From a virus, in IMG/VR virus record IMGVR_UViG_3300040815_000620, positions 1 through 42,568 of that record: DNA of 42,568 nucleotides. One strand, written 5' to 3'. The notes beneath the pieces were generated by a model, which saw only the letters and a list, made by a program, of their open reading frames with translations, was not told where the DNA came from and did no database searches. Every line of letters begins with the position of its first letter. Position 1 is the stretch's first letter. Shown piece after piece: positions 6,576 to 42,145 of this stretch. A program made the translations under genes and the position numbers.

Positions 6576-7577
6576 TTAGTTTGCTTGTCTTGAACGGATC
6601 ATTGCAAGAATGTCACTTGCATTACCGTCTGCTGATGCAGGTTCAGTTGCAGGTGCCGCTGGAGCAGTTTCTGCTACTGTTTCTGCTACTGGAGCAGTTG
6701 GTGTTGCGTCTGCTACTGGGGCAGTTTCTTGCGTTCTCGATGTTGCTGTACCGTTTGTAGATGATACATTAGGATCACCTGTTCTAGCTGCCATTCCCGC
6801 TGGACGGAAATACTGGCCAAAACGCTCTGCATCGTAAGCCTCGCCATCAACAGATGCTTCAAACATCTCTTTCATTACCTTAAGCTCTACTTCGCCTGGC
6901 TTTTTCGGAAGGAAGTCTGACATATTAAACAACCCGTGTGTGTTAACTGCATTCATCTCTGCATCAGTTAATGGACGCTCTCTACGAGCCCAGTTTGATG
7001 TTGAGTAGTCTGCATAACCACCTTTGCTTGTTTTAGCAAGACGGAAGTCTACACCAGCAGTATAATCTGTTGGCAATTCTTCCATGTCTGGATCCATTAG
7101 TGCCGCTTTAATAATTTGGAAAATTTGTGGACCAATAATAAATCTACGGATTGGATTTTCAGGTGTTGTATCTTCACCAAGTGGATTATCTACAACAAAG
7201 CCTTGGAAGATATATGAACGCTTCTTCCAATATTTACGACCCATGTCTTCAAGACTTGTGTCTTTAAACCAACCTCGTACTTCATTTAGGATTTCACAGG
7301 TTTCGCCATACATTTCCATACATGGAATTTGTACTTGTACTGGACGAGAGTCTGTCTCGCCTTTAATTCCAGCAAATGGAAGTTTGATCATCAAACGCTC
7401 TTTCCAAAAGAAAGTGTTTGATTCGTCGCCATCTGGCAAGAAACGAAGCGTTGAAGTTTCGCCTTCTTTCATATTCCAAAATGGGTAAATTGCGTTGTCG
7501 CCACCTGTGTTAGAACCGCCGCCTGTGCGTGATTCTTGTTCTTTGAGCTTTGCTCTGATTTCTGCTAATGATGCCAT
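6576..7577 (-). CDS. 32: gp32, single-stranded-DNA-binding protein
   Basis: A 333-aa protein with the architecture of T4 gp32 (301 aa): a basic N-terminal self-interaction segment (MASLAEIRAKLKEQ), an OB-fold core (about 30-235), a low-complexity Ala/Thr/Pro/Glu linker (about 255-310) and a short C-terminal tail (ASDILAMIRSRQ). It coats ssDNA and organises replication and recombination proteins. T4 gp32 binds zinc through one His and three Cys. Here only two Cys are seen in the corresponding region (C86 and C94) and no CxxC pair, so zinc binding is probably lost or altered. The gene has its own sigma70-like promoter upstream and a hairpin terminator downstream. Confidence 0.93.
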   Translation of the reverse strand: MASLAEIRAKLKEQESRTGGGSNTGGDNAIYPFWNMKEGETSTLRFLPDGDESNTFFWKERLMIKLPFAGIKGETDSRPVQVQIPCMEMYGETCEILNEVRGWFKDTSLEDMGRKYWKKRSYIFQGFVVDNPLGEDTTPENPIRRFIIGPQIFQIIKAALMDPDMEELPTDYTAGVDFRLAKTSKGGYADYSTSNWARRERPLTDAEMNAVNTHGLFNMSDFLPKKPGEVELKVMKEMFEASVDGEAYDAERFGQYFRPAGMAARTGDPNVSSTNGTATSRTQETAPVADATPTAPVAETVAETAPAAPATEPASADGNASDILAMIRSRQAN

Positions 7578-7640: not shown

Positions 7641-7669
7641 ACTATACAATACTATTTAGTAGAAGTCAA
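7641..7669 (-). promoter_or_regulatory. Sigma70-type promoter for gp32-uvsX
   Basis: On the minus strand TTGACT (7669-7664), a 17-base spacer and TATAGT (7646-7641) form a near-consensus host promoter in the 115-base gap before gp32. The -35 end overlaps a 10-bp inverted repeat (TTTAGTAGAA 7655-7664 with TTCTACTAAA 7675-7684), which could be an operator or a processing hairpin. Confidence 0.8.
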
Positions 7670-7684
7670 GTGTTTTCTACTAAA
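7655..7684. repeat. 10-bp inverted repeat overlapping the gp32 promoter
   Basis: TTTAGTAGAA (7655-7664) and TTCTACTAAA (7675-7684) are perfect complements with a 10-base loop. The repeat lies just after the end of the 581-aa gene and over the -35 to spacer part of the gp32 promoter. Read on the minus strand it has no following T-run, so it is not a clear terminator for the upstream gene. Confidence 0.6.
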
Positions 7685-7692
7685 TTTTTGAA

Positions 7693-26603: not shown

Positions 26604-27185
26604 ATGCAGAAAAACTATTTAGAAAATTTTGGATTTTATCGAGAAAAAATTCCGCAAGATCTATATCAAATGTTGTTAGAAGAATGTATTAACTGTTCTG
26701 ACAGAGAACATGTTCAATCAGGTCTAACCGGTGATGGAGTGGCTATTCATTATAGATTAAAAGATACTGCTCAATTATTAAACAAATATATTGCAGACAT
26801 TGTTATGAAATATGAAGAAGATTTTCCAGGATTAGGTAGAATCGGAGTATTAACTAACAATGTACCTTATAAAATAGATAATCAATGGATTAATCATCAA
26901 AAACAAGGACAATTTATTCCTAATCATACACATGAAGGAATTTATAGCTATACCATTTGGATTAAAATGCCTGATATAAAGCAAAGTAAATATGCAGGAA
27001 ATTTTCAATTTACTTATACCAATATTATTGGTAACCAATGCATAAAAACAATAAATTTAAGTAAAGAAAATGAAGGTGAACTTTTATTTTTTCCTTCAAA
27101 ACTTACTCATTGTGTATACCCATTTAGCGAATCTAATGATATACGCATGTCAATTAGCGGAAATATTCTTTTAGACGTAGGATAA
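26604..27185 (+). CDS. 2OG-Fe(II) oxygenase-like protein (phage PF13759-like)
   Basis: A 193-aa protein with the residue pattern of the phage 2OG-Fe(II) oxygenase family: H108-x-H110 (FIPNHTHEGIYSYTIWI), a distal H169 (FFPSKLTHCVYPF) and R181, in a double-stranded beta-helix arrangement. It has an HxH where classical enzymes have HxD/E, as do two other proteins in this window. It would use O2, Fe(II) and 2-oxoglutarate to hydroxylate an unknown substrate. It starts directly after the NUDIX stop and is followed by a cupin-like gene. Activity is likely but the substrate is unknown. Confidence 0.7.
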   Translation: MQKNYLENFGFYREKIPQDLYQMLLEECINCSDREHVQSGLTGDGVAIHYRLKDTAQLLNKYIADIVMKYEEDFPGLGRIGVLTNNVPYKIDNQWINHQKQGQFIPNHTHEGIYSYTIWIKMPDIKQSKYAGNFQFTYTNIIGNQCIKTINLSKENEGELLFFPSKLTHCVYPFSESNDIRMSISGNILLDVG

Positions 27186-27187
27186 AA

Positions 27188-27544
27188 ATGGAAGAAAATA
27201 AAAATGTAAGCACTACTGATTATGGGTATGAAATAACATGGATTACCCAAGAGTCCTATGGCGGGAAAATACTAGTTTTTGAAAAACCTTTTAAGACAGA
27301 ATTTTGGTTTAATAACAAAACTGAAAAGTCTTGGTTTGTAAATAACGGATCATTTGTTTTTAGATGGATAGATACATCAAATGGGCAATTATTTCAACAA
27401 GAAGCCAAAGAAGGATTTGTGTTTACAGCAAAACCTCTTGTACCATGTGCTATAGAATGCACTTCCCCAGGTAGTTTATCTGAGGTTAATAATGGTTATT
27501 TTGACAACGATAAATTTATAGTAATTCATAAAGGAGGTTATTAA
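27188..27544 (+). CDS. Degenerate cupin-fold protein
   Basis: A 118-aa protein with the strand order of a phosphomannose-isomerase-type cupin: GGKILVFEKPFK, EKSWFVNNGSFVFRWID, KEGFVFTAKPLVPCAIE and EVNNGYFDNDKF. In such cupins the segment before the WFV strand normally carries HxH metal ligands; here it reads TEFWFNNKTEK with no His. The last strand-loop lacks the usual His as well (VPCAIE). It probably keeps the fold but not the metal chemistry. The stop overlaps the start of the 85-aa gene (TAATG). Confidence 0.55.
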   Translation: MEENKNVSTTDYGYEITWITQESYGGKILVFEKPFKTEFWFNNKTEKSWFVNNGSFVFRWIDTSNGQLFQQEAKEGFVFTAKPLVPCAIECTSPGSLSEVNNGYFDNDKFIVIHKGGY

Positions 27545-28699: not shown

Positions 28700-28707
28700 T
28701 ATTTATT
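28700..28707 (-). promoter_or_regulatory. Late promoter box for the 293-aa fibre gene
   Basis: Minus-strand AATAAATA overlapping the end of the subtilase gene, 16 bases before the ATG at 28683 with GAGGT between. Confidence 0.55.
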
Positions 28708-31261
28708 AATCTGGTACATATCCTGATGGACCTGCAACTGTTGGATCACCTACGTCTCCGTCTTGGAATATGTTTCTAATTGTTGCCAATGATGGTTTAC
28801 TGATTACCGGAGCAATGTATGTGTTATGGAAAGCATAACCTAATGGGTTATTTGTTTGAATACCTGCTTGGGTACGCATATCGTCTGTCCATTCAGGCGC
28901 AAGACTTCCACCTTCCCATAGACTTGTATACTCAAACATACAGAAGTTAAGTAGATACAAGTATTCTTTTGCGGCTACTTCAAATGCATCAGGATCGGTT
29001 TTGAAAGCATCTGCTGGACTGTTATACCCTGATGGATCCCACTTGCCTGCGTCATATGCTTCTACCATTGCATTATATAAATCGCCAGTATTCCAATCAG
29101 CTGCTAAGAACTGATATAATTTTATGTCATCTGCAGGTAATCCGTGCATATGTATTGTGTGGAATACATGTTCAATAACTTCTTGTGCATCTTGATCGCC
29201 ATCGCCTGGTGCTCCACCTGTTGAGTTTAGATACCACACCATATCGTTTTGTACAGTAGTATCAAACAAGTCTGTTAGATTCCAAAATATAATGCCAGCA
29301 TCTGTTAAAAAGTTTGTGCTATAGTCTGAGCCAGCACCTCTTGCTACTCTTTGTATTGTTGGTACCCCTGCATGATATGTTCCTGCGTCACCACTAAGTG
29401 TTTTAATTAACGCCCTTTGGAGTGTTCCATTAATGCCTGAGCCATTTGGATCTGTAAACAGTTCAAACATACGAGCAACTTTTTCTAACCACGCATCTGG
29501 AACTGCTGTTTGTCCTCCAACTGCGCCGGCACCCATTATCCTTACACCATTTACAGTAACTTCCCGTTTAAAGAAGTCACTACCATCGCCAACAACATTG
29601 ATAATTGCACCATTGTTGTATTCTGGATCTGCTTCTACTACTGGTACTGCTGGAACTTCTGCCGGAGTATAATTAGGGAAAATTCCCTCTAATTTAAGAT
29701 TTGTTCCGTTTACTTCTACAGGTTGTCTTCCGTATCTTGAAAATAAAATATTAGTTGAAGCACCTAACAAAGATGTAGAAAAATTTAAGTAGTCGTTGTT
29801 ACTGCCAGTATCATACATTAACGGTTTTGCATCTGCTTCTATTTTTGTTTTAAGTTGAGCTGGTGTTAATCCTGGTTGTGATTCAAGATGAAGTCCTGCT
29901 ACGCCACAAACTTGAGGTGCAGCAAAACTTGTACCACTATTAATACCTATTCTAAAGTTTTCATTCAATGGATATTCTGCATCTGTTTTGTTATTGATTG
30001 TGCTAGTTGCCGCAACTATATTTGTTCCAGGTGCCCAGATGTTTACTCTAGATCCTTTGCTGCTAGATGATGCTGTTCTATCTTTGTATACACCTTCGTC
30101 GTCAAAAACATTTATATCAATATTTCCAACAATAAATGCATCGTCCGAATGCGGACTAGAACCTCGATGATAATATCTACCAGTTGCCCCGTAAACAACT
30201 TCGTTATCGAAATCTATACTTCCACTTATATCACCTTTAAAATAATCATTACCTGATGCAATAAAGACATGTACACCAGCTGAAATAAGTTCCTCTACGT
30301 CTGTATCAACTGATGCTACTCTAGCAGGAAAACTTCTTGTTATAGCTGATAACGGAACTACAATTCCTGTCCCGGCCCACAGAGCAGTATTATCAGTGTA
30401 ATCTACGCCCCAGGTCCAGCCTGTTCCTCTATAAGTTCCGCTTGTAGGATTTCCTGATATTTCACTAAGAAATCCCCAACTCATATTTACTATTGTAGGT
30501 CGTTTATATCCTGTAATCGGATCAACAGGTTTGTTATTATGCCATTCTTTAATAACATCAAAACAATCTGATACTGGTGTTCCTGTACCCGAATCTCCTG
30601 GTCCTTCAAGGCCTGAAATCTTCATCGAATAAATTCTAGATTCTTTACTAAACCCATATGTTTTTCCTGCAACAATACTTGCACACATGGTTCCGTGTCC
30701 GTCAAAGTCTCTATGATAACTTGCACTCTGTGTTCCTGGTAACCCAGATGCTGTATACCAATCTATATATTGATATCGATTGTTTCCTTGACTGTCTTGA
30801 AAATCAGGATGTGTTGGTTCTATTCCACTATCTTGAACAACAACATCAACACCTCTTCCTTGCAATGCATAATCATAATTTGTTGAAGTTGAGGCAGAAT
30901 TTTTATATAAGTTTTCCTGTATGATTGATCTTTTTAACCCCCAATTTACATATTGGTCATTATCAAGTGTTGTTGGTTTTGTAAAATTTGCAAACTGTGT
31001 TGATAGTTTTCCTATTTTTATATCTGTTCTCTGATCTGGTGGAATTTCAACAGCTAGTATTCTCGGATCAGATTGTAATGCAGATGCTTCTTGGTCAGTG
31101 AGCATAAAATGAGTTTGTCTAAGACTTCCTGGTCGTGCATTAGCTATGTCAACACTTCTATTAGGAATAGGTCCATCGCCGGAAGTTGCAGTAAGTTCTG
31201 CTTCAACTTCTGCTAAATTTACACCTTTATTTACAATTACAGTATATTCTTTTTCACTCAT
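28706..31261 (-). CDS. Subtilisin-like serine protease with a large C-terminal domain, in the tail-fibre block
   Basis: An 851-aa protein. Residues 1-80 look like an inhibitor/propeptide-type region (SALQSDPRILAVEI). The S8 catalytic domain (about 100-500) keeps all key residues: D144 (VVVQDSGIEPTHPDF), H189 (DGHGTMCASI), the oxyanion N338 (ASGND) and S445 (NSGTSFAAP). The C-terminal 350 residues are of unknown fold and hold EHVFHTIHMHG at 696-706, a His-rich possible metal site. There is no signal peptide. Flanked by two fibre-like genes, it may be a virion-associated protease that degrades host surface proteins or processes fibres. Its start follows the stop of the upstream fibre gene by one base. 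Confidence 0.88.
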   Translation of the reverse strand: MSEKEYTVIVNKGVNLAEVEAELTATSGDGPIPNRSVDIANARPGSLRQTHFMLTDQEASALQSDPRILAVEIPPDQRTDIKIGKLSTQFANFTKPTTLDNDQYVNWGLKRSIIQENLYKNSASTSTNYDYALQGRGVDVVVQDSGIEPTHPDFQDSQGNNRYQYIDWYTASGLPGTQSASYHRDFDGHGTMCASIVAGKTYGFSKESRIYSMKISGLEGPGDSGTGTPVSDCFDVIKEWHNNKPVDPITGYKRPTIVNMSWGFLSEISGNPTSGTYRGTGWTWGVDYTDNTALWAGTGIVVPLSAITRSFPARVASVDTDVEELISAGVHVFIASGNDYFKGDISGSIDFDNEVVYGATGRYYHRGSSPHSDDAFIVGNIDINVFDDEGVYKDRTASSSSKGSRVNIWAPGTNIVAATSTINNKTDAEYPLNENFRIGINSGTSFAAPQVCGVAGLHLESQPGLTPAQLKTKIEADAKPLMYDTGSNNDYLNFSTSLLGASTNILFSRYGRQPVEVNGTNLKLEGIFPNYTPAEVPAVPVVEADPEYNNGAIINVVGDGSDFFKREVTVNGVRIMGAGAVGGQTAVPDAWLEKVARMFELFTDPNGSGINGTLQRALIKTLSGDAGTYHAGVPTIQRVARGAGSDYSTNFLTDAGIIFWNLTDLFDTTVQNDMVWYLNSTGGAPGDGDQDAQEVIEHVFHTIHMHGLPADDIKLYQFLAADWNTGDLYNAMVEAYDAGKWDPSGYNSPADAFKTDPDAFEVAAKEYLYLLNFCMFEYTSLWEGGSLAPEWTDDMRTQAGIQTNNPLGYAFHNTYIAPVISKPSLATIRNIFQDGDVGDPTVAGPSGYVPD

Positions 31262-31262
31262 A

Positions 31263-32519
31263 TTATACTAAATTTACCCAACTGCCGTTTTCGTAACCTT
31301 GAAATTTGTTATCAGTTGTGTTGTAAATTATATCTCCGTTTTGCGGTGCTAGAGCATTCCTTGTAGTTGTTGTAAAACTTGCCATGCGCAGTGGCGAATT
31401 TTGTAATATAATACCATCTGGTGCAGTTATTGTTAGTGTACTTGCACTATCTAGCTTTGGCAATCCTGTACCGTTAGTAACAAAGGATTTTGCATAAGCA
31501 TAGTTACTAACAGTTAGATCATTTTCAACTGTTAAGTCACTGTTCATTGTAACTGCTGGTGTAATTGTTATAATACTGCTGTCATCTGTTGTTATATTTG
31601 ATGCTGCTAGAGTGAAGTTACCAGTGCCGCCGCCGGCAGCATCTTCAAATGTAAATATGCCGGCACCATCAGTTGTAAGAACTTGTCCTACTGTGCCGTC
31701 TGTTATTCCTAAATCTGTTAAAGTATTAACAGTTGGATAAACTGGTTGTACCCATTGATTACTGTCATCATCCTCTACATATACATATAATTTTGCACTA
31801 GTACTGTCAAACCATATAGATCCATTAGTTGGTTCTTCGGGCACTGCATCTGACACACTTATACTTGTGTCGCCGCCGCCTGTTCCTGGCTGCGCAGCTG
31901 TAATAGTATTACCCATTCCGGTGTGACTAGTACACCAGTAATATAATGTTTCTGGAGTACTGCTAGTAATTGTAATTTGAACACTACGCTGTGTTGCACC
32001 TGCAAAACCTTGTATATATTCTGCCTTTGTAACAGGATCGTTATCTAATTTATAGATAACTTTTGTAGTGTATGAAGTTCCGGCACCAAGTTCTCCATTT
32101 AGATTATCAGCACTAAAACTTAATGGATGAATGTTTGCTGTTCCACCAATGCTATTAGGAAAATATTCATTAGTTGGTTCATCTTGATTAAAGATATAAG
32201 TATATCCTACTACTAACGATAATGTAGGTTTGTACACACCGTCAATAAAATATTTGTTGCCTGCTTCTAAACCATCAGGATCAACTCCTACAGTTACAAT
32301 ATATTCTACAATTCCTACTCCACTTGAAATAAGTTCTTGTGATATATTACCAGAAGTTAATACAGTGTACCCTCCGGCTAATTTGCCAGAGTATAATCTT
32401 AAAGTATTTGATTGCTTGTCAAAGAATACTTCTCCGCTATTACCGACATTTCTATCAAGAAAATCATCCGGTCTTGGAATAATCCGTATTCTGTCTACAA
32501 TTGGTGCTTGATTTGCCAT
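31263..32519 (-). CDS. Tail-fibre-like virion protein with an internal cupredoxin-like domain
   Basis: A 418-aa protein. The N-terminus (FLDRNVGNSGEVFFDKQSNT, LRLYSGKLAGG) and C-terminus (NGDIIYNTTDNKFQGYENGS, WVNLV) are typical of phage fibre and collar modules. A further NGSIWFDSTS module sits near 232-240. The domain at about 88-208 is cupredoxin-like with H131 (IHPLSF), C196, H199 and M202 (YWCTSHTGM), matching type 1 copper ligands with amicyanin spacing. Its ribosome binding site (AAGGAAG) lies in the 3' arm of a 12-bp hairpin whose loop is the late promoter. It is followed after one base by the subtilase gene. Confidence 0.72.
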   Translation of the reverse strand: MANQAPIVDRIRIIPRPDDFLDRNVGNSGEVFFDKQSNTLRLYSGKLAGGYTVLTSGNISQELISSGVGIVEYIVTVGVDPDGLEAGNKYFIDGVYKPTLSLVVGYTYIFNQDEPTNEYFPNSIGGTANIHPLSFSADNLNGELGAGTSYTTKVIYKLDNDPVTKAEYIQGFAGATQRSVQITITSSTPETLYYWCTSHTGMGNTITAAQPGTGGGDTSISVSDAVPEEPTNGSIWFDSTSAKLYVYVEDDDSNQWVQPVYPTVNTLTDLGITDGTVGQVLTTDGAGIFTFEDAAGGGTGNFTLAASNITTDDSSIITITPAVTMNSDLTVENDLTVSNYAYAKSFVTNGTGLPKLDSASTLTITAPDGIILQNSPLRMASFTTTTRNALAPQNGDIIYNTTDNKFQGYENGSWVNLV

Positions 32520-32528
32520 TATAAAACT

Positions 32529-32562
32529 TCCTTCACAATATATTTATGCTTATTGTGAAGGA
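32529..32562 (-). promoter_or_regulatory. 12-bp hairpin with the late promoter box as its loop; masks the fibre-gene ribosome binding site
   Basis: TCCTTCACAATA (32529-32540) and TATTGTGAAGGA (32551-32562) pair perfectly over 12 bp. The 10-base loop (32541-32550) contains minus-strand CATAAATA (32548-32541). The Shine-Dalgarno AAGGAAG of the fibre gene lies in the 3' arm, so RNA reading through from groEL would hide it. RNA started from the loop promoter lacks the 5' arm and leaves it free. The same hairpin could also act as a weak terminator for groEL (GTTTT follows). Confidence 0.8.
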
Positions 32563-32569
32563 GTGTGTT

Positions 32570-34246
32570 TTACTGATCGTACTGAGGTGCTAAACTTCTT
32601 TCGCCTGCACTAGGAGCTGGTCCAATCACACTCAAATCTTCTTCATCATTGTCTTCGTAAATTGCACAATCTGTTATTAGTAGTAGTCCTGCAATACTAG
32701 AAGCATTTTTTATTGCTTTTTGCACCACAGTTACAGGGTCAATAATTCCTATGTCAAACATGTTTCCGTATTCGCCTGTGGCTGCATCATAGCCAAACTC
32801 TGCATTACCTTTAGATACTTCGTTAGCAACTACATCAGGACTATCACCTGCATTGTATACAATTTGTTTTAATGGCTCTTCTAATGCTTTTAATACAACT
32901 TGTATTCCAGCATCCTGTTCTGAGTTTGCACCTTTAAGTGATTTGAGCTTACTCATAACTCTAATTAATGCAACGCCGCCTCCGGGTACAATACCATCTT
33001 TTAATGCTGCTTTAGTAGCATGAAGTGCATCGTCAATTCTATCTTCTTTTTCTCGTAGTTCAATCTTTGTAGCAGATCCTACTCTAATAATACTCACTGC
33101 TCCGGTTAAGTTAGAAATGCGTTTTTGTTGTCCTTTATCTGTAAAGACATCGTCGCCTCTTGGGGCATCAATGTAGTGTTCAATTTTGTCTTTAATATAT
33201 TGAGCAATCACACCCTTGTCACCGTGTCCTCCGATAATCGTAACTTGGCTATCTGTAATTTCTACACGATTTGCTTGGCCACAATCTTCTATTTCTGCTG
33301 TTTCAACTTTTTTACCTGTTTGATCAGAAATAACTTTACCACCAGTTAGTACAGCAATATCTTCACAGTATTTGGTGCGCATTTTACCCTTCCAATCCGG
33401 TGGTTTAACAGCACAACAACTAATAGAACCATTTAATGTATTAATTACAAGTGTTGCTAATACATCTGTTTCAACTTCTTCGGCCATAATTAAGAATGGT
33501 CGTTTTGTAGCGACTAGTTTTTCTAATATAGGAAGAATGTCATTCATATTTAAAATCGGTCTGTCGCAAATAAGAATGTAAGGATTTTCTAAAACACATT
33601 TTTGTTTTGGTGCATTCACAAACTGCGGCGACAAATAACCATGTTCATATTGAAAACCATTAACTTTCACTAATTCATCTTCGTAAGACATGCCAGGCTC
33701 AACTGAAACTAATGATTGATAAGAAGGTTCATCGCCACCAAGTGCTTCTGCAATTAGTTTTCCTAGTTTTTCATCATTATTTGTAGCGATAGATGCAACT
33801 GATTCAACTGTGTCTCTATCTTCACATTTCTTTGCATCTTCATTTAAAACTTTTAATACTTCGTCAACAGCAAGATCGATTCCTCTTTTTAAATTAATAC
33901 CACTAATACCAGCTGTTAGAAATTTTTGTCCTTCATTAATCATTTTTTGTGCAAGAAGTGTTGCTGTTGTTGTACCGTCGCCAATGTCATCAAAAGTTTG
34001 ACTAGCAGCCATTTTAATCATTCTTACACCTGTATCTTGCAACTTGTCTTTTAGCCAAATTTCTCGTGCAACTGTTACACCATCTTTAGTAACATGAGGA
34101 GGACCAAATGTTCTTTGAATAATAACATTTCTTCCCTTAGGACCTAGTGTAACTTTAACAGCATCTGCTAGGATGTTTACACCTTCGATAATTTTTTTGC
34201 GACCTTCGTCACCGTTAGCTACTATTCTTGGTATAATTTTACCCAT
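32570..34246 (-). CDS. groEL: GroEL, chaperonin 60
   Basis: A 558-aa full-length group I chaperonin. The nucleotide site is intact: TLGPKGRNV (33-41), TKDG and GDGTTTAT (near 89-96), and the later DDALHATKAAL with the Asp expected at the E. coli D398 position, then GIVPGGGVALI. The C-terminus ends in ERSLAPQYDQ rather than the GGM-repeat tail of many bacterial GroELs. It is coded with groES (8-base overlap). T4-like phages normally supply only a co-chaperonin (gp31) and use host GroEL, so a phage-coded GroEL is unusual. It probably folds phage virion proteins, perhaps the capsid or fibre proteins. Confidence 0.96.
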   Translation of the reverse strand: MGKIIPRIVANGDEGRKKIIEGVNILADAVKVTLGPKGRNVIIQRTFGPPHVTKDGVTVAREIWLKDKLQDTGVRMIKMAASQTFDDIGDGTTTATLLAQKMINEGQKFLTAGISGINLKRGIDLAVDEVLKVLNEDAKKCEDRDTVESVASIATNNDEKLGKLIAEALGGDEPSYQSLVSVEPGMSYEDELVKVNGFQYEHGYLSPQFVNAPKQKCVLENPYILICDRPILNMNDILPILEKLVATKRPFLIMAEEVETDVLATLVINTLNGSISCCAVKPPDWKGKMRTKYCEDIAVLTGGKVISDQTGKKVETAEIEDCGQANRVEITDSQVTIIGGHGDKGVIAQYIKDKIEHYIDAPRGDDVFTDKGQQKRISNLTGAVSIIRVGSATKIELREKEDRIDDALHATKAALKDGIVPGGGVALIRVMSKLKSLKGANSEQDAGIQVVLKALEEPLKQIVYNAGDSPDVVANEVSKGNAEFGYDAATGEYGNMFDIGIIDPVTVVQKAIKNASSIAGLLLITDCAIYEDNDEEDLSVIGPAPSAGERSLAPQYDQ

Positions 34247-34547
34247 GTTGCGTGTCTCCTTTAAGTTTACCTAATACTTCGTGTTCCTCAAGAATAAGAA
34301 ATTCTTCAGAATTTATTTTAATTTGGTGTCCAGCATATTTTGGATAAACTACAGTGTCACCGGTTTCAACCACCATCGGCATAACTTTACCATCATCATT
34401 AATCTTGCCCGGACCTACAGAAATAACCTTACCTTTAGTAGGTCTTTCTTTAGTGTCATCAGAAAGAACAAGACCGGATTTTGTTTTATTTTCGTCTTCG
34501 ATTTTTTGTACGAGAATTCTATCTCGTATAGGTACAAATTCTTGCAT
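34239..34547 (-). CDS. groES: GroES, co-chaperonin
   Basis: A 102-aa protein clearly of the bacterial GroES type, not T4 gp31. It starts FVPIRDRILVQKIEDE, has a mobile-loop region (NKTKSGLVLSDDTKERPTKG, with the GLVL contact like GIVL in E. coli), then KVISVGPGKIN, GDTVVYPKYAG and EFLILEEHEVLG. It caps the GroEL ring encoded next to it. A perfect TATAAATA late box is upstream with a good ribosome binding site (AAGGAG). So the pair is expressed late, when capsid and tail proteins are made. Confidence 0.96.
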   Translation of the reverse strand: MQEFVPIRDRILVQKIEDENKTKSGLVLSDDTKERPTKGKVISVGPGKINDDGKVMPMVVETGDTVVYPKYAGHQIKINSEEFLILEEHEVLGKLKGDTQHG

Positions 34548-34580
34548 GTTATCTTCTCCTTAGTAACGACATTTGCAAGA

Positions 34581-34588
34581 TATTTATA
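34581..34588 (-). promoter_or_regulatory. T4-type late promoter box for groES-groEL
   Basis: Minus-strand TATAAATA, 33 bases before the groES ATG. It shares a 16-base stretch with the box at 2599-2606. Confidence 0.75.
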
Positions 34589-35097: not shown

Positions 35098-35746
35098 CAA
35101 TTTGATTCAAATCTTTATATCCTAAATTTGGTCTTTTATCGTAAATCCATTCAGGATAAAACGGCCCATCTTTATCAATATAATGAAAAAATCCTTGTAT
35201 GTGATAACTATTTATACCCGCTTCAAATTTATCTCTCCAGTGTTCTATATCTACACCTCTATAGATTAAAATATCTCCCGGAGTTTGTTCAATCATTATT
35301 CCAGGATTATTTGCACTTACAAAATTACCCAATGATGTAGTTCCGTAAGAATCTTTATCAACATACATACCCCAATTATAATCAGTATCTGTGTTGTTGT
35401 AATTGAATGAAAAACAGGCTGTTGTGCTTATTTCACAACTTTCTCTATCTTTATGTCTTTCTAGTTCTTGTCCAGGGCGATATACTCTGTAGTAACTGTA
35501 AGTAGGACACAACCTTAAACCAGTATTTGCTTCCATATGGGGTAGTAAAAAATATAACATTGTTTCCATTAATGTGTCTGCATATACTGAATGAGAAAAC
35601 GGAACCTGTCCATCTGCTTCCTCGGGTTCAAAACTGTTTTCTTCTTTCATTAAACAATATTTAGATACTACACTACAGATATCTTTTGGAATAATTTGTT
35701 TACAATCAACATACATATTTTGTTTAAATAGTTCTTCGTTTGTCAT
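35093..35746 (-). CDS. 2OG-Fe(II) oxygenase (prolyl-hydroxylase-like)
   Basis: A 217-aa protein with H98-x-D100 (LERHKDRESCEISTTACFSF) and a distal H169 (IYRGVDIEHWRDKFEAG) in a double-stranded beta-helix order, followed by FFHYID. The last His segment has the EHWR...F.G pattern known from a group of phage and bacterial 2OG oxygenases that lack the typical RxS arginine. It probably hydroxylates a protein or small molecule. It is the third gene of a four-base-overlap operon (ATGA overlap with the upstream PKHD-like gene). Substrate unknown. Confidence 0.75.
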   Translation of the reverse strand: MTNEELFKQNMYVDCKQIIPKDICSVVSKYCLMKEENSFEPEEADGQVPFSHSVYADTLMETMLYFLLPHMEANTGLRLCPTYSYYRVYRPGQELERHKDRESCEISTTACFSFNYNNTDTDYNWGMYVDKDSYGTTSLGNFVSANNPGIMIEQTPGDILIYRGVDIEHWRDKFEAGINSYHIQGFFHYIDKDGPFYPEWIYDKRPNLGYKDLNQIV

Positions 35747-36528
35747 CTAAATGGGTATCCTAAATTCCAGGCAACTAAGCTATACCGGGTTCCTTTTGTT
35801 ACAGGAGTAACTTGATGATGAATATGTGAAGGAAAAACTATCACAGAGCCCTGTGGCCTTATTTCTTTGCAAGTATGATATCTCTTATCTGCATGAGGGC
35901 CAAAATCAAATCTTAAATTGCCGCCTTTATATTCTTCTGGTCGGTTTAAACTAATTGTTACACTTAATTTTCTAACTTTTCCGATTAGATTATCGTTTGT
36001 GCTTGCTAGATTATCTTCTGTTAGAGGATTTCCAAATGTATCTACCATCGGAGTACCGTCAGATTTTAATTTGAACTTATCAGTGTCAGGATCAAACTTT
36101 CGATATGGTTTTGAACCCATATCAACATGCCATCCGTAAAATTGTCCAGGACCATATTTAGTAAATTGGAATTCTTCAGTATAATCCCAATCAAAATTCC
36201 AATTTGCATTTTTGTTTGCTTCGGCTACAAACGCCTGGACCATGTCATAAAGATAAGGATCGCTTAACCATGTAATATTAGAATCTCTTACATATGCTTT
36301 TTCGGGTTCGATTCCTTTTTTCTTTAATCCTTCCATAGTTAGATCATTGGCTGCAACATCAAATCCTTCTGATTTATGTTGCCAACCTCCAGTTGTAGCT
36401 GTAGAAACTTCTTTGCCAAATGCTTTTTCTTGTTCGTGCATTTTAGCTAATCCTGCTTCTATAATTGCATCACACACTTCAGGTTTGATAGCAGATTCAA
36501 AGTACCAATAATCGTAATCTAGTATCAC
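35743..36528 (-). CDS. PKHD-type 2OG-Fe(II) oxygenase with an inserted loop
   Basis: A 261-aa protein with all expected ligands: H134-x-D136 (YGWHVDMGSK), H238 (FPSHIHHQVTPVTKG) and R248 (KGTRYSLVAWNLG). This is the pattern of the PKHD hydroxylase group (PiuC-like). About 45 residues rich in Asp, Lys and Asn lie between the HxD and the core strand RKLSVTISLNRPEEY, longer than usual. The start is GTG at 36528, overlapping the stop of the upstream gene (GTGA). It is a likely active hydroxylase; the substrate is unknown. Confidence 0.85.
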   Translation of the reverse strand: MILDYDYWYFESAIKPEVCDAIIEAGLAKMHEQEKAFGKEVSTATTGGWQHKSEGFDVAANDLTMEGLKKKGIEPEKAYVRDSNITWLSDPYLYDMVQAFVAEANKNANWNFDWDYTEEFQFTKYGPGQFYGWHVDMGSKPYRKFDPDTDKFKLKSDGTPMVDTFGNPLTEDNLASTNDNLIGKVRKLSVTISLNRPEEYKGGNLRFDFGPHADKRYHTCKEIRPQGSVIVFPSHIHHQVTPVTKGTRYSLVAWNLGYPFR

Positions 36529-37148
36529 TTAAACAACGCTCCGTGTACATGGCCGATAATAATTTTCATCTCACCTTTTGTAACTTTATTGATTTTAAAA
36601 GGTACAAATGCCGGAAAAATTAATATTTTACCGATATTTTTGATATTATGGTCGCTAGTATCAGTGTTTAAAAATTCAATATCACCACCTTCGTATTCTG
36701 TTTCATCTGATAAATTAACAATCCAGGTCATTTTTCTTGTTGGTGCAAGTAGATTAACATCAATATGCCAATCATAATAACAATTTTCAGTGTATTTGTA
36801 CACCTGAGGGAAATCTTGATCGATTATTCCTAACAAATCAAAGTTATAAATTTGATCGTTAGCTGACTTAGTTACATCTCTAATCTTATCAAAAGGAAAT
36901 CCAGTTACATCTCCTCTTAATTTTTGTCTAAAACCTTCGTGTAATTTTGTATCACCGTGAACTTTTATAGGCATCCACAGTTCGTCTATTGTATTTTCTT
37001 CTATAAGTCTGCATTCTTCTTTTGTAAAAACATCACTAAAGTTTACAGAAGTTATTTGCAAACTAGGTTCAATTTTTTCTGGCATGTCTTGTTCAGATCT
37101 TTGCTCTGCTAAATCTGTAAAGCCGGCACTATTTTCAGGTCCATTCAT
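36525..37148 (-). CDS. PKHD-like 2OG oxygenase homologue with missing ligands (probable pseudoenzyme)
   Basis: A 207-aa protein of the same family as its neighbour, with H128-x-D130 kept (YYDWHIDVNLLA). The distal motif is FPAFVPFKINKVTKGEMKII: the metal-binding His is F184 and the 2OG-binding Arg is M194. Both are intact in the next gene. It therefore probably cannot bind iron and 2OG normally. I start at the ATG at 37148 because AGGAGG lies 6 bases before it; an upstream TTG reading adds eight codons. First gene of the operon that also holds 35743-36528 and 35093-35746. Confidence 0.7.
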   Translation of the reverse strand: MNGPENSAGFTDLAEQRSEQDMPEKIEPSLQITSVNFSDVFTKEECRLIEENTIDELWMPIKVHGDTKLHEGFRQKLRGDVTGFPFDKIRDVTKSANDQIYNFDLLGIIDQDFPQVYKYTENCYYDWHIDVNLLAPTRKMTWIVNLSDETEYEGGDIEFLNTDTSDHNIKNIGKILIFPAFVPFKINKVTKGEMKIIIGHVHGALFK

Positions 37149-37216
37149 ATTTTTCCTCCTGTTGAAGTACAATTACTTATCTTAGTAGTTAACAGAGTTA
37201 TATTTTTTCTGAACCG

Positions 37217-37224
37217 TATTTACT
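37217..37224 (-). promoter_or_regulatory. Possible late promoter box for the minus-strand oxygenase operon
   Basis: Minus-strand AGTAAATA in the 122-base divergent gap, 68 bases before the ATG at 37148. Weak: two mismatches to TATAAATA. Confidence 0.3.
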
Positions 37225-37243
37225 TTTGAGATATATTCCAAAA

Positions 37244-37251
37244 GTTAAATA
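37244..37251 (+). promoter_or_regulatory. Possible late promoter box for the plus-strand cassette
   Basis: GTTAAATA, the same variant as used before gp17, 19 bases before the ATG at 37271 with an AGGA ribosome binding site between. It would start the transcript of the oxygenase-halogenase cassette. Confidence 0.45.
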
Positions 37252-37270
37252 TACATGATTAGGATAGAAC

Positions 37271-37870
37271 ATGATGTTACCAGAAGATGCAACATATAGT
37301 CAAATACTATTAACTGAAGAAGAACAAGCAATTATCGAAAACGATATTCTTGGATACTATTTTCCTTGGTTTTATATTAGCAAACAAACAACTTACATAT
37401 ATCAGGACCATGTTCCTAAAGAAATACGCGATGGCGAATATGTCAATGGGCCTTTTTTAAGTCATTCATTATTACGCAGGACCGAAGAAGAACATATAAA
37501 ACATACAGAACGACATATAAATGATTATAGTGAAGGATACTATGAATTTTTTATAGGAATCTTTCATCGTTGGATGAAAGCAAACAATAAAGAATATAAA
37601 AATATCTTTAGAGCTAATCTTAATTGTAATTGGTACAATGGTGATGATGCTGTAACAGTTCCACACGAAGATCATACATGGCCTCACCATAATTGGTTGT
37701 TGTATCTTACAGATAATCCTGGAGCACCAACTCTTATTTGGCACAACGATAAATGGTTAGAACTACCTGCAGAAAAATTTATGGTTTCAGATTTTAAAGG
37801 ATGTTACCACGCACACAAATATCCTAAAGTAGGTGAAAGACGAGTTGTAGTAGTAATTACCTATGTCTAA
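37271..37870 (+). CDS. 2OG-Fe(II) oxygenase-like protein, first gene of the halogenase cassette
   Basis: A 199-aa protein with H132-x-D134 (VTVPHEDHTWPHHNWLLYL), then strands GAPTLIWHNDKWLELPAEKF and a distal His (H180 or H182, GCYHAHKYP) followed by R190/R191 (GERRVVVVITYV). This is the complete order of iron and 2OG ligands. The first 100 residues are of unknown type and rich in aromatic residues. It starts with ATG after AGGA at 37261-37264 and overlaps the next gene by 8 bases. The role is presumably linked to the halogenase genes further on in the same transcript. Confidence 0.65.
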   Translation: MMLPEDATYSQILLTEEEQAIIENDILGYYFPWFYISKQTTYIYQDHVPKEIRDGEYVNGPFLSHSLLRRTEEEHIKHTERHINDYSEGYYEFFIGIFHRWMKANNKEYKNIFRANLNCNWYNGDDAVTVPHEDHTWPHHNWLLYLTDNPGAPTLIWHNDKWLELPAEKFMVSDFKGCYHAHKYPKVGERRVVVVITYV

Positions 37871-38504
37871 TTTAGATTTTAATTCAATAGATCAAACAAT
37901 TATAATGCACATGAAGGAAGAAATTCCTAAAAACATCTGCAACAATATATCTAAACAGATTTTAAAGTACAAAGACAGTGACAATAAAAACACCGATGCT
38001 AAAATGATTAAGAACAGCAATTTTGGTTGCTGGCGCGGAAAGCCCCATTTACATAATGGATTTGACGAAGAAACGTCTAAATACTTAATGAATAAAATAT
38101 TAGAAGTATCAAATTTATACATGCAATCATTGCCTCAACCTACAAATTTAAACATGCAACAAGTACATGTTACTAAGCAATGGAATGTAAATGCTTGGTT
38201 TAACGCAAATGACAAAGGCGCGGAAAACAGAGAACATGCGCATACCGGAAATTTAAATTTAGTAAGTGGTGTTTTTTACTTCCAAGGTACAGGAACTGGA
38301 TTCATAGAATTTATTCCACAACACTATATGTATAGAACAACACATGTTGCTTGGCCTTACCATGGTACTTCGTATTATGAACCCAATGACGGTGACATTT
38401 TATTGTTTCCTAGTCATTTAGTACACAAAGTTCATAGTAATCCTATCGACAGGCAGAGAATTAATATGGCATTTAATGCAGGATTAAGTTTAGAGGAGTT
38501 TTAA
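37863..38504 (+). CDS. 2OG-Fe(II) oxygenase-like protein (PF13759-like)
   Basis: A 213-aa protein with H125-x-H127 (NREHAHTGNLNLVSGVFYF), H188 (LFPSHLVHKVHSN) and Arg at 197/199 (DRQRINMAFNAG). These match the phage 2OG-Fe(II) oxygenase family also seen at 26604-27185 and 41519-42145. It lies immediately before the first halogenase (the stop overlaps that ATG, TAATG), so the two are co-translated and may act on one substrate. I infer the activity from the motif pattern only. Confidence 0.7.
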   Translation: MSNLDFNSIDQTIIMHMKEEIPKNICNNISKQILKYKDSDNKNTDAKMIKNSNFGCWRGKPHLHNGFDEETSKYLMNKILEVSNLYMQSLPQPTNLNMQQVHVTKQWNVNAWFNANDKGAENREHAHTGNLNLVSGVFYFQGTGTGFIEFIPQHYMYRTTHVAWPYHGTSYYEPNDGDILLFPSHLVHKVHSNPIDRQRINMAFNAGLSLEEF

Positions 38505-40033
38505 TGAAGATTGTAATTGTAGGTGGTGGTACAGCAGGATGGATCACAGCATTGATTGCTAGTGCAAGGCATCCTGATCACGAAATTACTGTTATTGAAA
38601 GTAGTAAAATAGGAGTAGTCGGTGTAGGTGAAAGTACTACAGGACATTTTACTGATGTACTAGTTAACTGGGCTACAAATTACGGATGTGATCAAAACGA
38701 ATTTATTAAAGAAACCGGTGCAACATTAAAATATGCTATAAAGCATAAGGGGTGGACAAATAATATAGACGATTATTATATAGGCCCTATTGATGGCACA
38801 CATACCACTAGTGCGACTCCCGATTGTTTATTTAATTTTGGATTAGACAAACTACAAAGAAAAGAAATGTTAAATCTTTCTCGTTGTGGTTATTGGATTT
38901 ACAACGAATTAAGTAATTTTAATAAATTTAAAAAAGAATTTATAGACAATCATCATGCATATCACATAGACGCACACCTTGCAGGGCAATATTTTAAAAA
39001 AGTTGCGCTTCGTCGACTTAACACTAAACACATTGATACCGAAGTACTAGATGTAAAACTCAATGATAAGGGATTTGTGAAAAGTTTGGTGTTATCTAAC
39101 CAACAAATATTAGACGGTGATTTTTTTATTGATTGTTCAGGATTTAATCGTGTGGTAATGAAACATCTTCCTAGTAAATGGGTAAGTTTCCAAGACAACT
39201 TGCCTCTAAACACAGGGTTGCCGTTTCATTTAAAATACAAAGAAGGCGAAGTTCCAGAACCATATACAACTGCCTGGGCGCAAAAAGCAGGTTGGATGTG
39301 GCAGATACCTCTAATGGATCGCAAAGGATGCGGATATGTTTATTGCGATGCTTATACAACTCCTGACAAAGCCCAAGAAGAAATAGAAACAATACTAGGA
39401 CAAGAAATAGATCCTATCAGAGTAATAAAATTTGATTCAGGGCGGCAAGAAAGTGCTTGGATTAAAAATTGTGTTACTATCGGACTTAGTAGTGCCTTTT
39501 TAGAACCGTTGGAAGCAACTAGTATTCATTCAACTATTGTACAAGCTAATAATTTATTCTTTGAATATGTAAAACCTACTATCGAACAAACTATAAATGA
39601 AGGAAGTATGGCAATATATAACAAACGAACAAGAAAATTATACGATGACATTAAAGATTTTCTAGTATTGCACTACATGGGTGGCCGAGACGACAGCGAA
39701 TTTTGGAAATATATTAAAACCGGAGTAACTCAAACCGAGTTTGTAAAAGAATTATTAGAAATGGCAAAATATAGGACACCGACATTTAACGATTTCCCTC
39801 ATTACCAAGGTAGTGCTGGTTGGCCGTTGTACAGTTATGTTATGGAAGGTATAAATGTTCTTAACAAAGATATTGCTAGTTCAGAAATAGATTTTAGCTT
39901 GCCGGAGGGTAATTTATATGAGCTAACACAACATAGTCATTATGAACTTAAAAATCATTGGGCAAATGAGACACAATATTGTTACTCTTATAAAGAGTTT
40001 ATTGAATATTTTAGAGGATTACGAAATTTATGA
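38504..40033 (+). CDS. Flavin-dependent tryptophan-halogenase-family enzyme, copy 1
   Basis: A 509-aa enzyme. The FAD-binding GxGxxG is at residues 7-13 (GGGTAGW) and is followed by VIESSKIGVVGVGESTTGHF. WMWQIP at 264-269 is the WxWxIP signature of flavin-dependent halogenases. K76 (ATLKYAIKHKGW) and E337 (FLEPLEATS) stand where the catalytic Lys (K79) and Glu (E346) of PrnA are. It should use FADH2, O2 and a halide to make HOX and halogenate an aromatic substrate. A related viral enzyme, VirX1 from cyanophage Syn10, is known to iodinate diverse small molecules. The substrate here is unknown, and no flavin reductase is seen. Confidence 0.93.
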   Translation: MKIVIVGGGTAGWITALIASARHPDHEITVIESSKIGVVGVGESTTGHFTDVLVNWATNYGCDQNEFIKETGATLKYAIKHKGWTNNIDDYYIGPIDGTHTTSATPDCLFNFGLDKLQRKEMLNLSRCGYWIYNELSNFNKFKKEFIDNHHAYHIDAHLAGQYFKKVALRRLNTKHIDTEVLDVKLNDKGFVKSLVLSNQQILDGDFFIDCSGFNRVVMKHLPSKWVSFQDNLPLNTGLPFHLKYKEGEVPEPYTTAWAQKAGWMWQIPLMDRKGCGYVYCDAYTTPDKAQEEIETILGQEIDPIRVIKFDSGRQESAWIKNCVTIGLSSAFLEPLEATSIHSTIVQANNLFFEYVKPTIEQTINEGSMAIYNKRTRKLYDDIKDFLVLHYMGGRDDSEFWKYIKTGVTQTEFVKELLEMAKYRTPTFNDFPHYQGSAGWPLYSYVMEGINVLNKDIASSEIDFSLPEGNLYELTQHSHYELKNHWANETQYCYSYKEFIEYFRGLRNL

Positions 40034-41529
40034 ACATAGTCATTGTTGGTGGGGGTACAAGTGGCTGGACAACTGCACTAATTTTAGCACACGAACACCC
40101 TAACCACACATTTACAGTAATTGAATCATCAAAATTTGGTATTATAGGTGTAGGTGAAAGCACTACAGGGTATTTTACAAACTTATTCGACGGAAGGTAC
40201 GGACTGTCTTTAAAAGATTTCATGTTAAAGACAAATGCTACTCCAAAATATGCCATTCGGCACATAAATTGGGCTCCTGATGTTACAGATTACTATACTG
40301 CACCCATTGACGGTAGTTATACTAGCGGATTAGACCAAGATCTGTTTTTCTATTGGGGTATGAACAACTTGCCTCGAAAAGATCTTGGAAAAATTAGTCG
40401 ACTTGGTAATTTTATTGATAAAAAGTTTACATTATTTCATAAAACAGATCAAGATTTTGTAGATTATAATTTCGCATTACATATAGACGGTATGAAAACT
40501 AGTGAATATTTAAAAAATCACTGTTTACAATTAAAAAATGTAAAATTAATAGATACAGAAGTGATTAATGTTAATCTTGACGATAAAGGTTTTATAAAAT
40601 CTCTAAATTTGTCTAATCAAACAGATATTGGTGCAGATTTTTTTATAGATTGTAGTGGATTTAAAAAAATCTTAATAAATGAGTTAAAAGAAAATAATTG
40701 GATAAGTTATAAAGATCATTTACCAGTTAACACTGCAATACCGTTTTTTACACAATATAACGAACAGGAATGTCCCGAATTATATACGACTGCCTGGGCA
40801 CAAAACAACGGATGGGTGTGGCGCGGTCCTCTTGCACACCGAAGAGGCAACGGATATGTATTCAGTGACGATTTTATAAGTATAGACGATGCTATAAAAG
40901 AAGTAGAAACAGCATACGGACATAGTATTGATCCTATAAAAGTTGTAAAGTTTGATGCAGGAAGGCTAAAACAATCTTGGATCAAAAATTGTTTTGCTAA
41001 CGGATTAAGTTCGCAATTTTTAGAACCCATGGAAGCTACAGCAATACATCATACTGTAGTGCAAACACAGATCTTTAGTAAACAGTTTTTAAAAAATACA
41101 ATTGAAGATACATGTAATGAATATTCTCAAAAAATATATAATGAAACAAATGCTAAATCTGTAGATGATTATATGCATTTTTTAAACATGCATTATATGG
41201 GGGGAAGAACAGATACTGAATTTTGGAAATATGTTACTAATAATTCGGCAACAGAATATAATAAAACACTAATTGAAAGTTCTAAGTCAAGAATTCCAAG
41301 TAGATACGATTTCCCTACATATTACGGCAGTGGAGGCGGTCCGTTATATAGTCATGTTATGTATCAAATAGGCTTAATTAATCCAGAAATTGCAGTAAAT
41401 GATTTAAGTAGAATACACACCCAAGATGATATTGAACATGCATTGTTGGACATGCAAGATGAATGGTATAATACTATGTCTTATTGTATGACTAGCGAAG
41501 AGTTTCACCAGTATAGATTTAAAAATTAA
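40030..41529 (+). CDS. Flavin-dependent tryptophan-halogenase-family protein, copy 2, altered WxWxIP motif
   Basis: A 499-aa paralogue of the preceding gene, clearly related over the full length (both start with an IVIVGGGT(A/S)GW motif and share VIESSK and VGESTTG). K73 (ATPKYAIRHINW) and E335 (FLEPMEATAIH) are in the catalytic positions. WxWxIP reads WVWRGP (262-267), with Gly in place of Ile. The gene starts 4 bases inside the previous one (ATGA overlap), so the pair is translated together. It could be an active enzyme with another substrate or a partner subunit. It converges with the 41519-42145 gene (11-base overlap). Confidence 0.9.
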   Translation: MNIVIVGGGTSGWTTALILAHEHPNHTFTVIESSKFGIIGVGESTTGYFTNLFDGRYGLSLKDFMLKTNATPKYAIRHINWAPDVTDYYTAPIDGSYTSGLDQDLFFYWGMNNLPRKDLGKISRLGNFIDKKFTLFHKTDQDFVDYNFALHIDGMKTSEYLKNHCLQLKNVKLIDTEVINVNLDDKGFIKSLNLSNQTDIGADFFIDCSGFKKILINELKENNWISYKDHLPVNTAIPFFTQYNEQECPELYTTAWAQNNGWVWRGPLAHRRGNGYVFSDDFISIDDAIKEVETAYGHSIDPIKVVKFDAGRLKQSWIKNCFANGLSSQFLEPMEATAIHHTVVQTQIFSKQFLKNTIEDTCNEYSQKIYNETNAKSVDDYMHFLNMHYMGGRTDTEFWKYVTNNSATEYNKTLIESSKSRIPSRYDFPTYYGSGGGPLYSHVMYQIGLINPEIAVNDLSRIHTQDDIEHALLDMQDEWYNTMSYCMTSEEFHQYRFKN

Positions 41530-42145
41530 AACTTAGTGATATTCGACCATCACTTTCGTCATCTGTAACATTCTGTTCAACATAATGACTAACATGGCTA
41601 GGGAATAATACAAGCATTCCTTCTTTAGGTATAAACCAGTGAGAATTATTTGTTTGTGGATTATCTACTATAATGTCATTAGATGCGTAAATACTTTGAA
41701 TATTATGCATACGATCATATTCATTTACACTTCTATTAAAAACAATTCTTCCGCTATTACTGGGAACTTTGATATAATACACTCCGCTAACAAGCGCATT
41801 TGCATGTATATGCTCTCTATTGTATGTGTATTTTGTATTTAAATTATACCAATAACTAAAACTATTAATATCATGTGGAACTTGCCATCCATCTAGGATA
41901 GTACCAACCGACGGTTTAATAAAATTATCAAATAATTTACCTGTTTCGTCATAATCATACGGCATTGGGTAAATATCATTAGTTTGAAAGCCTCCAGCGT
42001 TGCTACGCTGTCGTCTGACATTAGGAACATTTTTATCTAAGTGATATACATGTTCACTTATCTTGGTGTTATCTATATCTTCAACATAAGTAACATAAGC
42101 AGATGTAACAAACATTGGATGGTGTTCTAAATGTATATTGTTCAT
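41519..42145 (-). CDS. 2OG-Fe(II) oxygenase-like protein between halogenase genes
   Basis: A 208-aa protein with H112-x-H114 (NREHIHANALVSGVYYIKVP), SGRIVFN, H187 (LFPSHVSHYVE) and R201 (GRISLSFNF), matching the phage PF13759-like family. It is on the minus strand between the second halogenase and the third, and is transcribed from its own TATAAATA box placed 5 bases before the ATG with no Shine-Dalgarno. It may work on the same substrate as the halogenases, but it is regulated separately. Confidence 0.72.
   Translation of the reverse strand: MNNIHLEHHPMFVTSAYVTYVEDIDNTKISEHVYHLDKNVPNVRRQRSNAGGFQTNDIYPMPYDYDETGKLFDNFIKPSVGTILDGWQVPHDINSFSYWYNLNTKYTYNREHIHANALVSGVYYIKVPSNSGRIVFNRSVNEYDRMHNIQSIYASNDIIVDNPQTNNSHWFIPKEGMLVLFPSHVSHYVEQNVTDDESDGRISLSFNF

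Follow-up and report, generated by a model that had tools for sequence, protein, structure and literature searches.

A conserved hairpin enclosing a late promoter box and the Shine-Dalgarno sequence of a tail gene behind groEL in an uncultured T4-like phage

Gene neighbourhood and structure of the hairpin

The window analysed in this work was the whole of virus record IMGVR_UViG_3300040815_000620 (42,568 nucleotides, 42.6 kb), which belongs to an uncultured T4-like phage and displays a T4-like gene set (tail sheath, tail tube, UvsX-like recombinase, gp32-like SSB, terminase, and baseplate genes). On the minus strand, groES and groEL are followed after a spacer of 50 bases by a gene for a 418-aa protein, and the hairpin studied here lies inside this spacer (Table 1). 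The 418-aa gene had been named a fibre gene from the sequence alone; this typing was weak. No Pfam match was obtained for the protein and the PHROG matches were to baseplate wedge (the best) and tail fibre families, so that "tail/baseplate structural protein" is a safer name. This gene and the one encoding an S8-protease-domain protein nearly abut (31261-31263) and have no late box between them; therefore, the hairpin may control both. Many host-type enzymes are encoded at 26604-27544 and 35743-42145 of the window, including two adjoining tryptophan-halogenase-like proteins, several 2OG-Fe(II) oxygenases, and a cysteine-dioxygenase-like protein.

Table 1. Positions of genes and leader features in the groES-groEL-tail gene region of the window.
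Feature	Position	Strand	Remarks
groES	34239-34547	minus	Overlaps groEL start; Pfam Cpn10, PHROG 3188
groEL	32570-34246	minus	PHROG 5725 (1e-137); stop codon 7 nt before the hairpin
418-aa tail (baseplate/fibre-type) structural protein	31263-32519	minus	PHROG 708 baseplate wedge (6e-19); tail fibre families weaker
S8-protease-domain protein	28706-31261	minus	
Late box TATAAATA of the groES-groEL operon	34581-34588	minus	
Probable groES block	34540-34580	minus	UCUUGCA (34580-34574) with UGCAAGA at the start codon (34546-34540); Shine-Dalgarno sequence in the loop
5' arm UCCUUCACAAUA	32551-32562	minus	Present only in RNA reading through from groEL
Loop AGCATAAATA	32541-32550	minus	Carries the late box CATAAATA (32548-32541)
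3' arm UAUUGUGAAGGA	32529-32540	minus	Carries the Shine-Dalgarno sequence AAGGA (32533-32529)
Predicted late start (+1)	32535	minus	Six bases past the box; inferred from T4 late-promoter geometry

In the RNA sense of the minus strand the hairpin reads UCCUUCACAAUA-AGCAUAAAUA-UAUUGUGAAGGA, with a perfect stem of 12 bp (100% complementary) and 10 nt between the arms. The arrangement put forward by the sequence-only reading, with the late box as loop and the Shine-Dalgarno (SD) sequence in the 3' arm, was confirmed in its exact coordinates and complementarity, the SD lying entirely within the arm at 9 nt from the AUG at 32519. Only 4-5 of the stem pairs are G-C, and A-U pairs close the stem at the loop. 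This is the longest perfect hairpin of the window (loops up to 16 nt), and dinucleotide shuffles of the whole window contained on average 0.23 stems of 12 bp or more; a chance origin was ruled out by the shuffles together with the conservation described below. The hairpin also folds when read on the plus strand, but there its tail is poor (score 2.7) and no gene start is evident, and this reading was discarded.

The motif ATAAATA was matched 13 times in the window, 12 of them on the minus strand and mostly just 5' of minus-strand starts, which makes a late promoter in the loop credible on sequence grounds. In T4 late promoters the box is located at about -13 to -6. With the start accordingly set six bases past the box, the predicted RNA begins within the 3' arm, so that its leader measures 16 nt and excludes the 5' arm. 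The motif NATAAATA, reported for late promoters of the T4-like cyanophage S-PM2 (PMC2984593), shows the same relaxed first base as the boxes found here (CATAAATA, GATAAATA, and AATAAATA); the likeness with S-PM2-type cyanophages concerns the promoter motif only, and no description of a sequestering hairpin in them was found in the literature searched. Upstream of the tail gene, groEL lies on the same strand with no other terminator between. The closest promoter on that side is that of groES, whose late box is found 335-343 bases ahead of groEL in close relatives and, in several distant ones, about 346-348 bases ahead of it. Sigma70-like sites did not exceed chance.

Elsewhere in the window, an 11-bp hairpin (AUUUAGUAGAA..UUCUACUAAAU, 7654-7685) was observed upstream of the gp32-like SSB gene (6576-7577), followed before this gene by a sigma70-like TTGACT-17-TATAGT (about 7668-7640, minus strand); together they probably mark the close of a late unit and a promoter for early transcription.

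Conservation, predicted accessibility, and association with groEL

The stem was kept in every contig found with groEL before the tail gene, which provided eight distinct leaders including that of the window. These contigs encode GroEL proteins with 82-92% identity to that of the window, in addition to copies of the same phage, and carry the 418-aa homologue as the next gene in all cases. Stem length in the relatives was 12-14 bp, with one internal mismatch in L131 and in L027 (same leader), and the late box at the hairpin upstream of the gene was present in all of them. Pairing across the eight leaders reached 97.1% of cells vs. 39-57% for controls slid by 1-3 columns. Compared to the window, changes in the arms were mostly compensated or led to G-U pairs: L132 and L133 presented double changes at two adjacent pairs (A-U to G-C and C-G to U-A, converting the CAC/GUG region into CGU/ACG), which probably reflect a single event on one branch, and wobbles appeared as U-G in L160 and L133 and as G-U in L129. 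The presence and covariation of the stem in related phages, named as a check by the sequence-only reading, were in this way borne out. In the same relatives, fourfold-degenerate sites of groEL were only 36-45% identical to the window, whereas the 5' arm differed at 0-3 of its 12 positions. Since this arm is neither promoter nor SD and yet stays constant, pairing would be the simplest reason for its constancy.

Folding of the leaders of the window and eight relatives gave opening costs for the SD of 8-13 kcal/mol in the read-through RNA as compared to about 0-2.6 kcal/mol in the predicted late RNA, and the computed probability of the SD being unpaired in the RNA coming from upstream was at most 0.054. 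Folding thus upheld the expectation that the SD would be sequestered in RNA arriving from groEL and accessible once transcription begins at the predicted late start. When the upstream 80 nt were shuffled, the SD was never buried as deeply (0/300 for the window and 0/200 for each of the eight relatives). Judging from the usual ribosome footprint, a ribosome terminating at the groEL stop codon would disturb only the base of the stem.

A comparable calculation pointed to a probable second block, of the soc type and acting on the start codon, at groES. There the start codon can pair with the stretch that separates the late box of groES from the predicted start of the late RNA. Opening of the groES start region would cost 10.1 kcal/mol in the read-through RNA of the window vs. 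1.5 in its late RNA, and 5.5-11.5 vs. 0.5-3.5 kcal/mol in seven relatives, partly via a shifted register. The evidence was weaker than for the tail gene because 1-11 of 300 shuffles attained such costs and the sequences share ancestry. As groES and groEL overlap, such a block could affect both genes.

The association of the hairpin with groEL was apparent among the best 80 of 272 matches to the tail gene, to which the following contrast applies. Around 14 distinct homologues not located behind groEL kept the late box, 25-36 bases before the start, and lacked the stem except for one weak case; their stems amounted to 3-7 bp, the exception being a 10-bp, A/U-rich one with two wobbles. Stem-poor homologues occurred both behind opposite-strand genes (L014, L022, L032, and L037) and behind same-strand genes, 2OG-oxygenase-like and others (L030, L031, L033, L034, L038, and others). 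The idea that the stem is a general feature of the late promoters of these phages was rejected, the other boxes of the window and the hairpin-less relatives having no such stems.

From the side of groEL, relatives with 60-67% identity had neither a tail gene nor a late box directly downstream. Most of the distant phage groEL operons inspected (L135-L154 and L159) ended in strong bidirectional terminators (e.g., GGCGC..GCGCCTTTTTT), several of which precede an apparently convergent gene, and the groEL genes retrieved from genome contigs were all remote (35-43% identity). When viral contigs were scanned twice for the hairpin pattern CCTT..ATAAATA..AAGG, the groEL-tail gene family alone yielded leader hairpins comparable to this one; the remaining matches had, for the most part, weak stems or long loops and seemed to be due to chance. 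A strong 16-bp hairpin around an ATAAATA was seen in an unrelated contig (L115:3836-3865). The scan with 7-mers in loops recovered T4 gene e and served no other use, as the control 7-mers overlap the same loops and are partly contaminated.

Known systems and alternative explanations

The leader of T4 gene e, AAUACCUUC-UAUAAAUA-CUUAGGAGGUAUU, forms an 11-bp stem around UAUAAAUA and shares with the tail-gene leader a late box (TATAAATA) in the loop region and the SD in the 3' arm; the block of upstream RNA and the free SD of late RNA are predicted for the tail-gene leader as well. The computed switch was also the same, with SD costs of 11.1 kcal/mol in read-through and 0.3 kcal/mol in late RNA. 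In T4 this block is experimentally documented, about 100-fold, and the upstream transcripts are early (PMC3014915). Differences lie in the two late boxes of gene e, in the position of lysozyme after nudE, and in those early upstream transcripts, whereas the present gene encodes a tail protein, is preceded by groEL, and lies downstream of an operon equipped with a late box of its own.

Reviews list soc, 49, I-TevI, I-TevII, I-TevIII, segB, and Aeh1 mobE as similar cases (PMC3014915; PMC2988022). The three I-Tev genes, segB, and mobE resemble the present locus in having late or middle promoters beside RNA hairpins by which the ribosome binding site is hidden in polycistronic early/middle RNA (PMC2988022), a likeness of description and not of sequence; they are homing endonuclease genes, whereas the gene studied here encodes a virion structural protein. 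T4 soc, counted among the sequestered T4 genes (PMC3014915), has a late box upstream of a foldable start region, but in our foldings its stem paired the start codon and left the SD in the loop, so that it resembles the groES leader and not that of the tail gene; it was discarded as a match to the latter because its SD cost behaves differently. Of the two T4 parallels initially invoked, gene e therefore proved to have the same arrangement (PMC3014915; PMC2988022) and soc a looser one. None of the cases listed in the reviews concerns a tail gene located downstream of chaperonin genes; thus, in the best reading, the tail-gene leader joins the class of late-promoter hairpins of T4 e, I-TevI, and mobE at a new gene pair.

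Other roles for the hairpin were considered. It could mainly serve to terminate the groES-groEL transcript as an intrinsic terminator, or form its 3' end, the late promoter being packed into the loop to save space and the SD overlap being a by-product. Distant groEL relatives do close the operon with strong terminators, and TTTTAA(TT) follows the stem in L129, L130, L132, and L133 (U-tract scores 4.4-4.5). This tail is not conserved, being AGTGAATA in L160 (score 1.8), AGTTTTAT in the window (2.6-3.3), and TTATAATA in L134, L158, and L131 (3.5); the distant terminators score 5.0-6.0, above the 1.8-4.5 of the hairpin, while SD pairing is kept in all relatives. A conserved G+C-rich stem with a direct U run, as in intrinsic terminators, was not found, given the few G-C pairs, the A-U closure at the loop, and the loss of the U tract in L160. 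The hairpin was not listed by a simple terminator scan, a result that is uninformative since the scan covered loops of up to 8 nt and this loop has 10. We consider the terminator unlikely as the main explanation; weak termination is possible in the four relatives with a U-rich tail, not in L160.

A role at the DNA level, as the operator of a dimeric repressor or an aid to opening of the late promoter, would fit the dyad symmetry around the late box, and I-TevI does repress its own late promoter through an overlapping operator (PMC2988022). Paired changes in DNA would look alike, but most of the single changes in the arms are tolerated as G-U pairs, which fits an RNA helix and not a DNA palindrome; moreover, no such repeat surrounds the remaining late boxes of the window or those of relatives, and the SD lies entirely inside an arm. 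An inverted repeat without RNA function thus seems very improbable. We give equally little credit to a hairpin for mRNA stability or RNase III processing at the groEL 3' end or the tail-gene 5' end: a stable stem of 12-14 bp right after the groEL stop could protect a 3' end, but it would have no need to coincide with the SD and the late box in all relatives, and the late RNA would not contain it.

Proposed role of the hairpin

The leader thus combines a hairpin overlapping both late box and SD, conservation with covariation, a tie to groEL, and a predicted accessibility switch; transcription start, read-through from groEL, and translational repression are what we infer for it. The hairpin is likely to act in cis as a translational insulator, in the manner of T4 gene e, separating the tail gene from the groES-groEL read-through RNA. 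RNA polymerase reading through groES-groEL would produce an RNA with both arms, in which the 12-bp hairpin would pair the whole SD and block binding of the 30S subunit, so that tail protein would not be made from chaperonin messages. RNA polymerase with a gp55-type late sigma factor would instead recognise CATAAATA in the loop and start about six bases downstream of it, inside the 3' arm; the resulting short late RNA, without the 5' arm, would leave the SD free and allow the tail protein to be made.

Given the conserved late box in front of groES, the read-through RNA may itself be late, and the block may then act as insulation and not as a timing device. In T4 the blocked RNA is early or middle, whereas here the nearest upstream promoter is late; hence, either groEL is fed by an early promoter that escaped detection, or the block serves to keep two late units apart. 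A point against the proposed insulator is that in other phages the tail gene has no such hairpin, even where the gene upstream of it is on the same strand. A more tentative extension, which we regard as possible but rather doubtful, is that groES (start codon paired, as in soc) and the tail gene (SD paired, as in e) would both be silenced on read-through RNA and each translated only from its own late transcript. If so, with a late operon upstream, the effect of the block would be to make the protein amounts of neighbouring late genes independent of each other, and not to postpone the expression of a late gene; the literature found describes no such purpose for the T4 examples.

The contrast between leaders with and without groEL suggests that a chaperonin operon inserted or kept before a virion gene called for translational insulation. 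A block of the T4 lysozyme type would in this way extend, with comparative evidence, to a new gene pair in a divergent lineage of uncultured T4-like phages.
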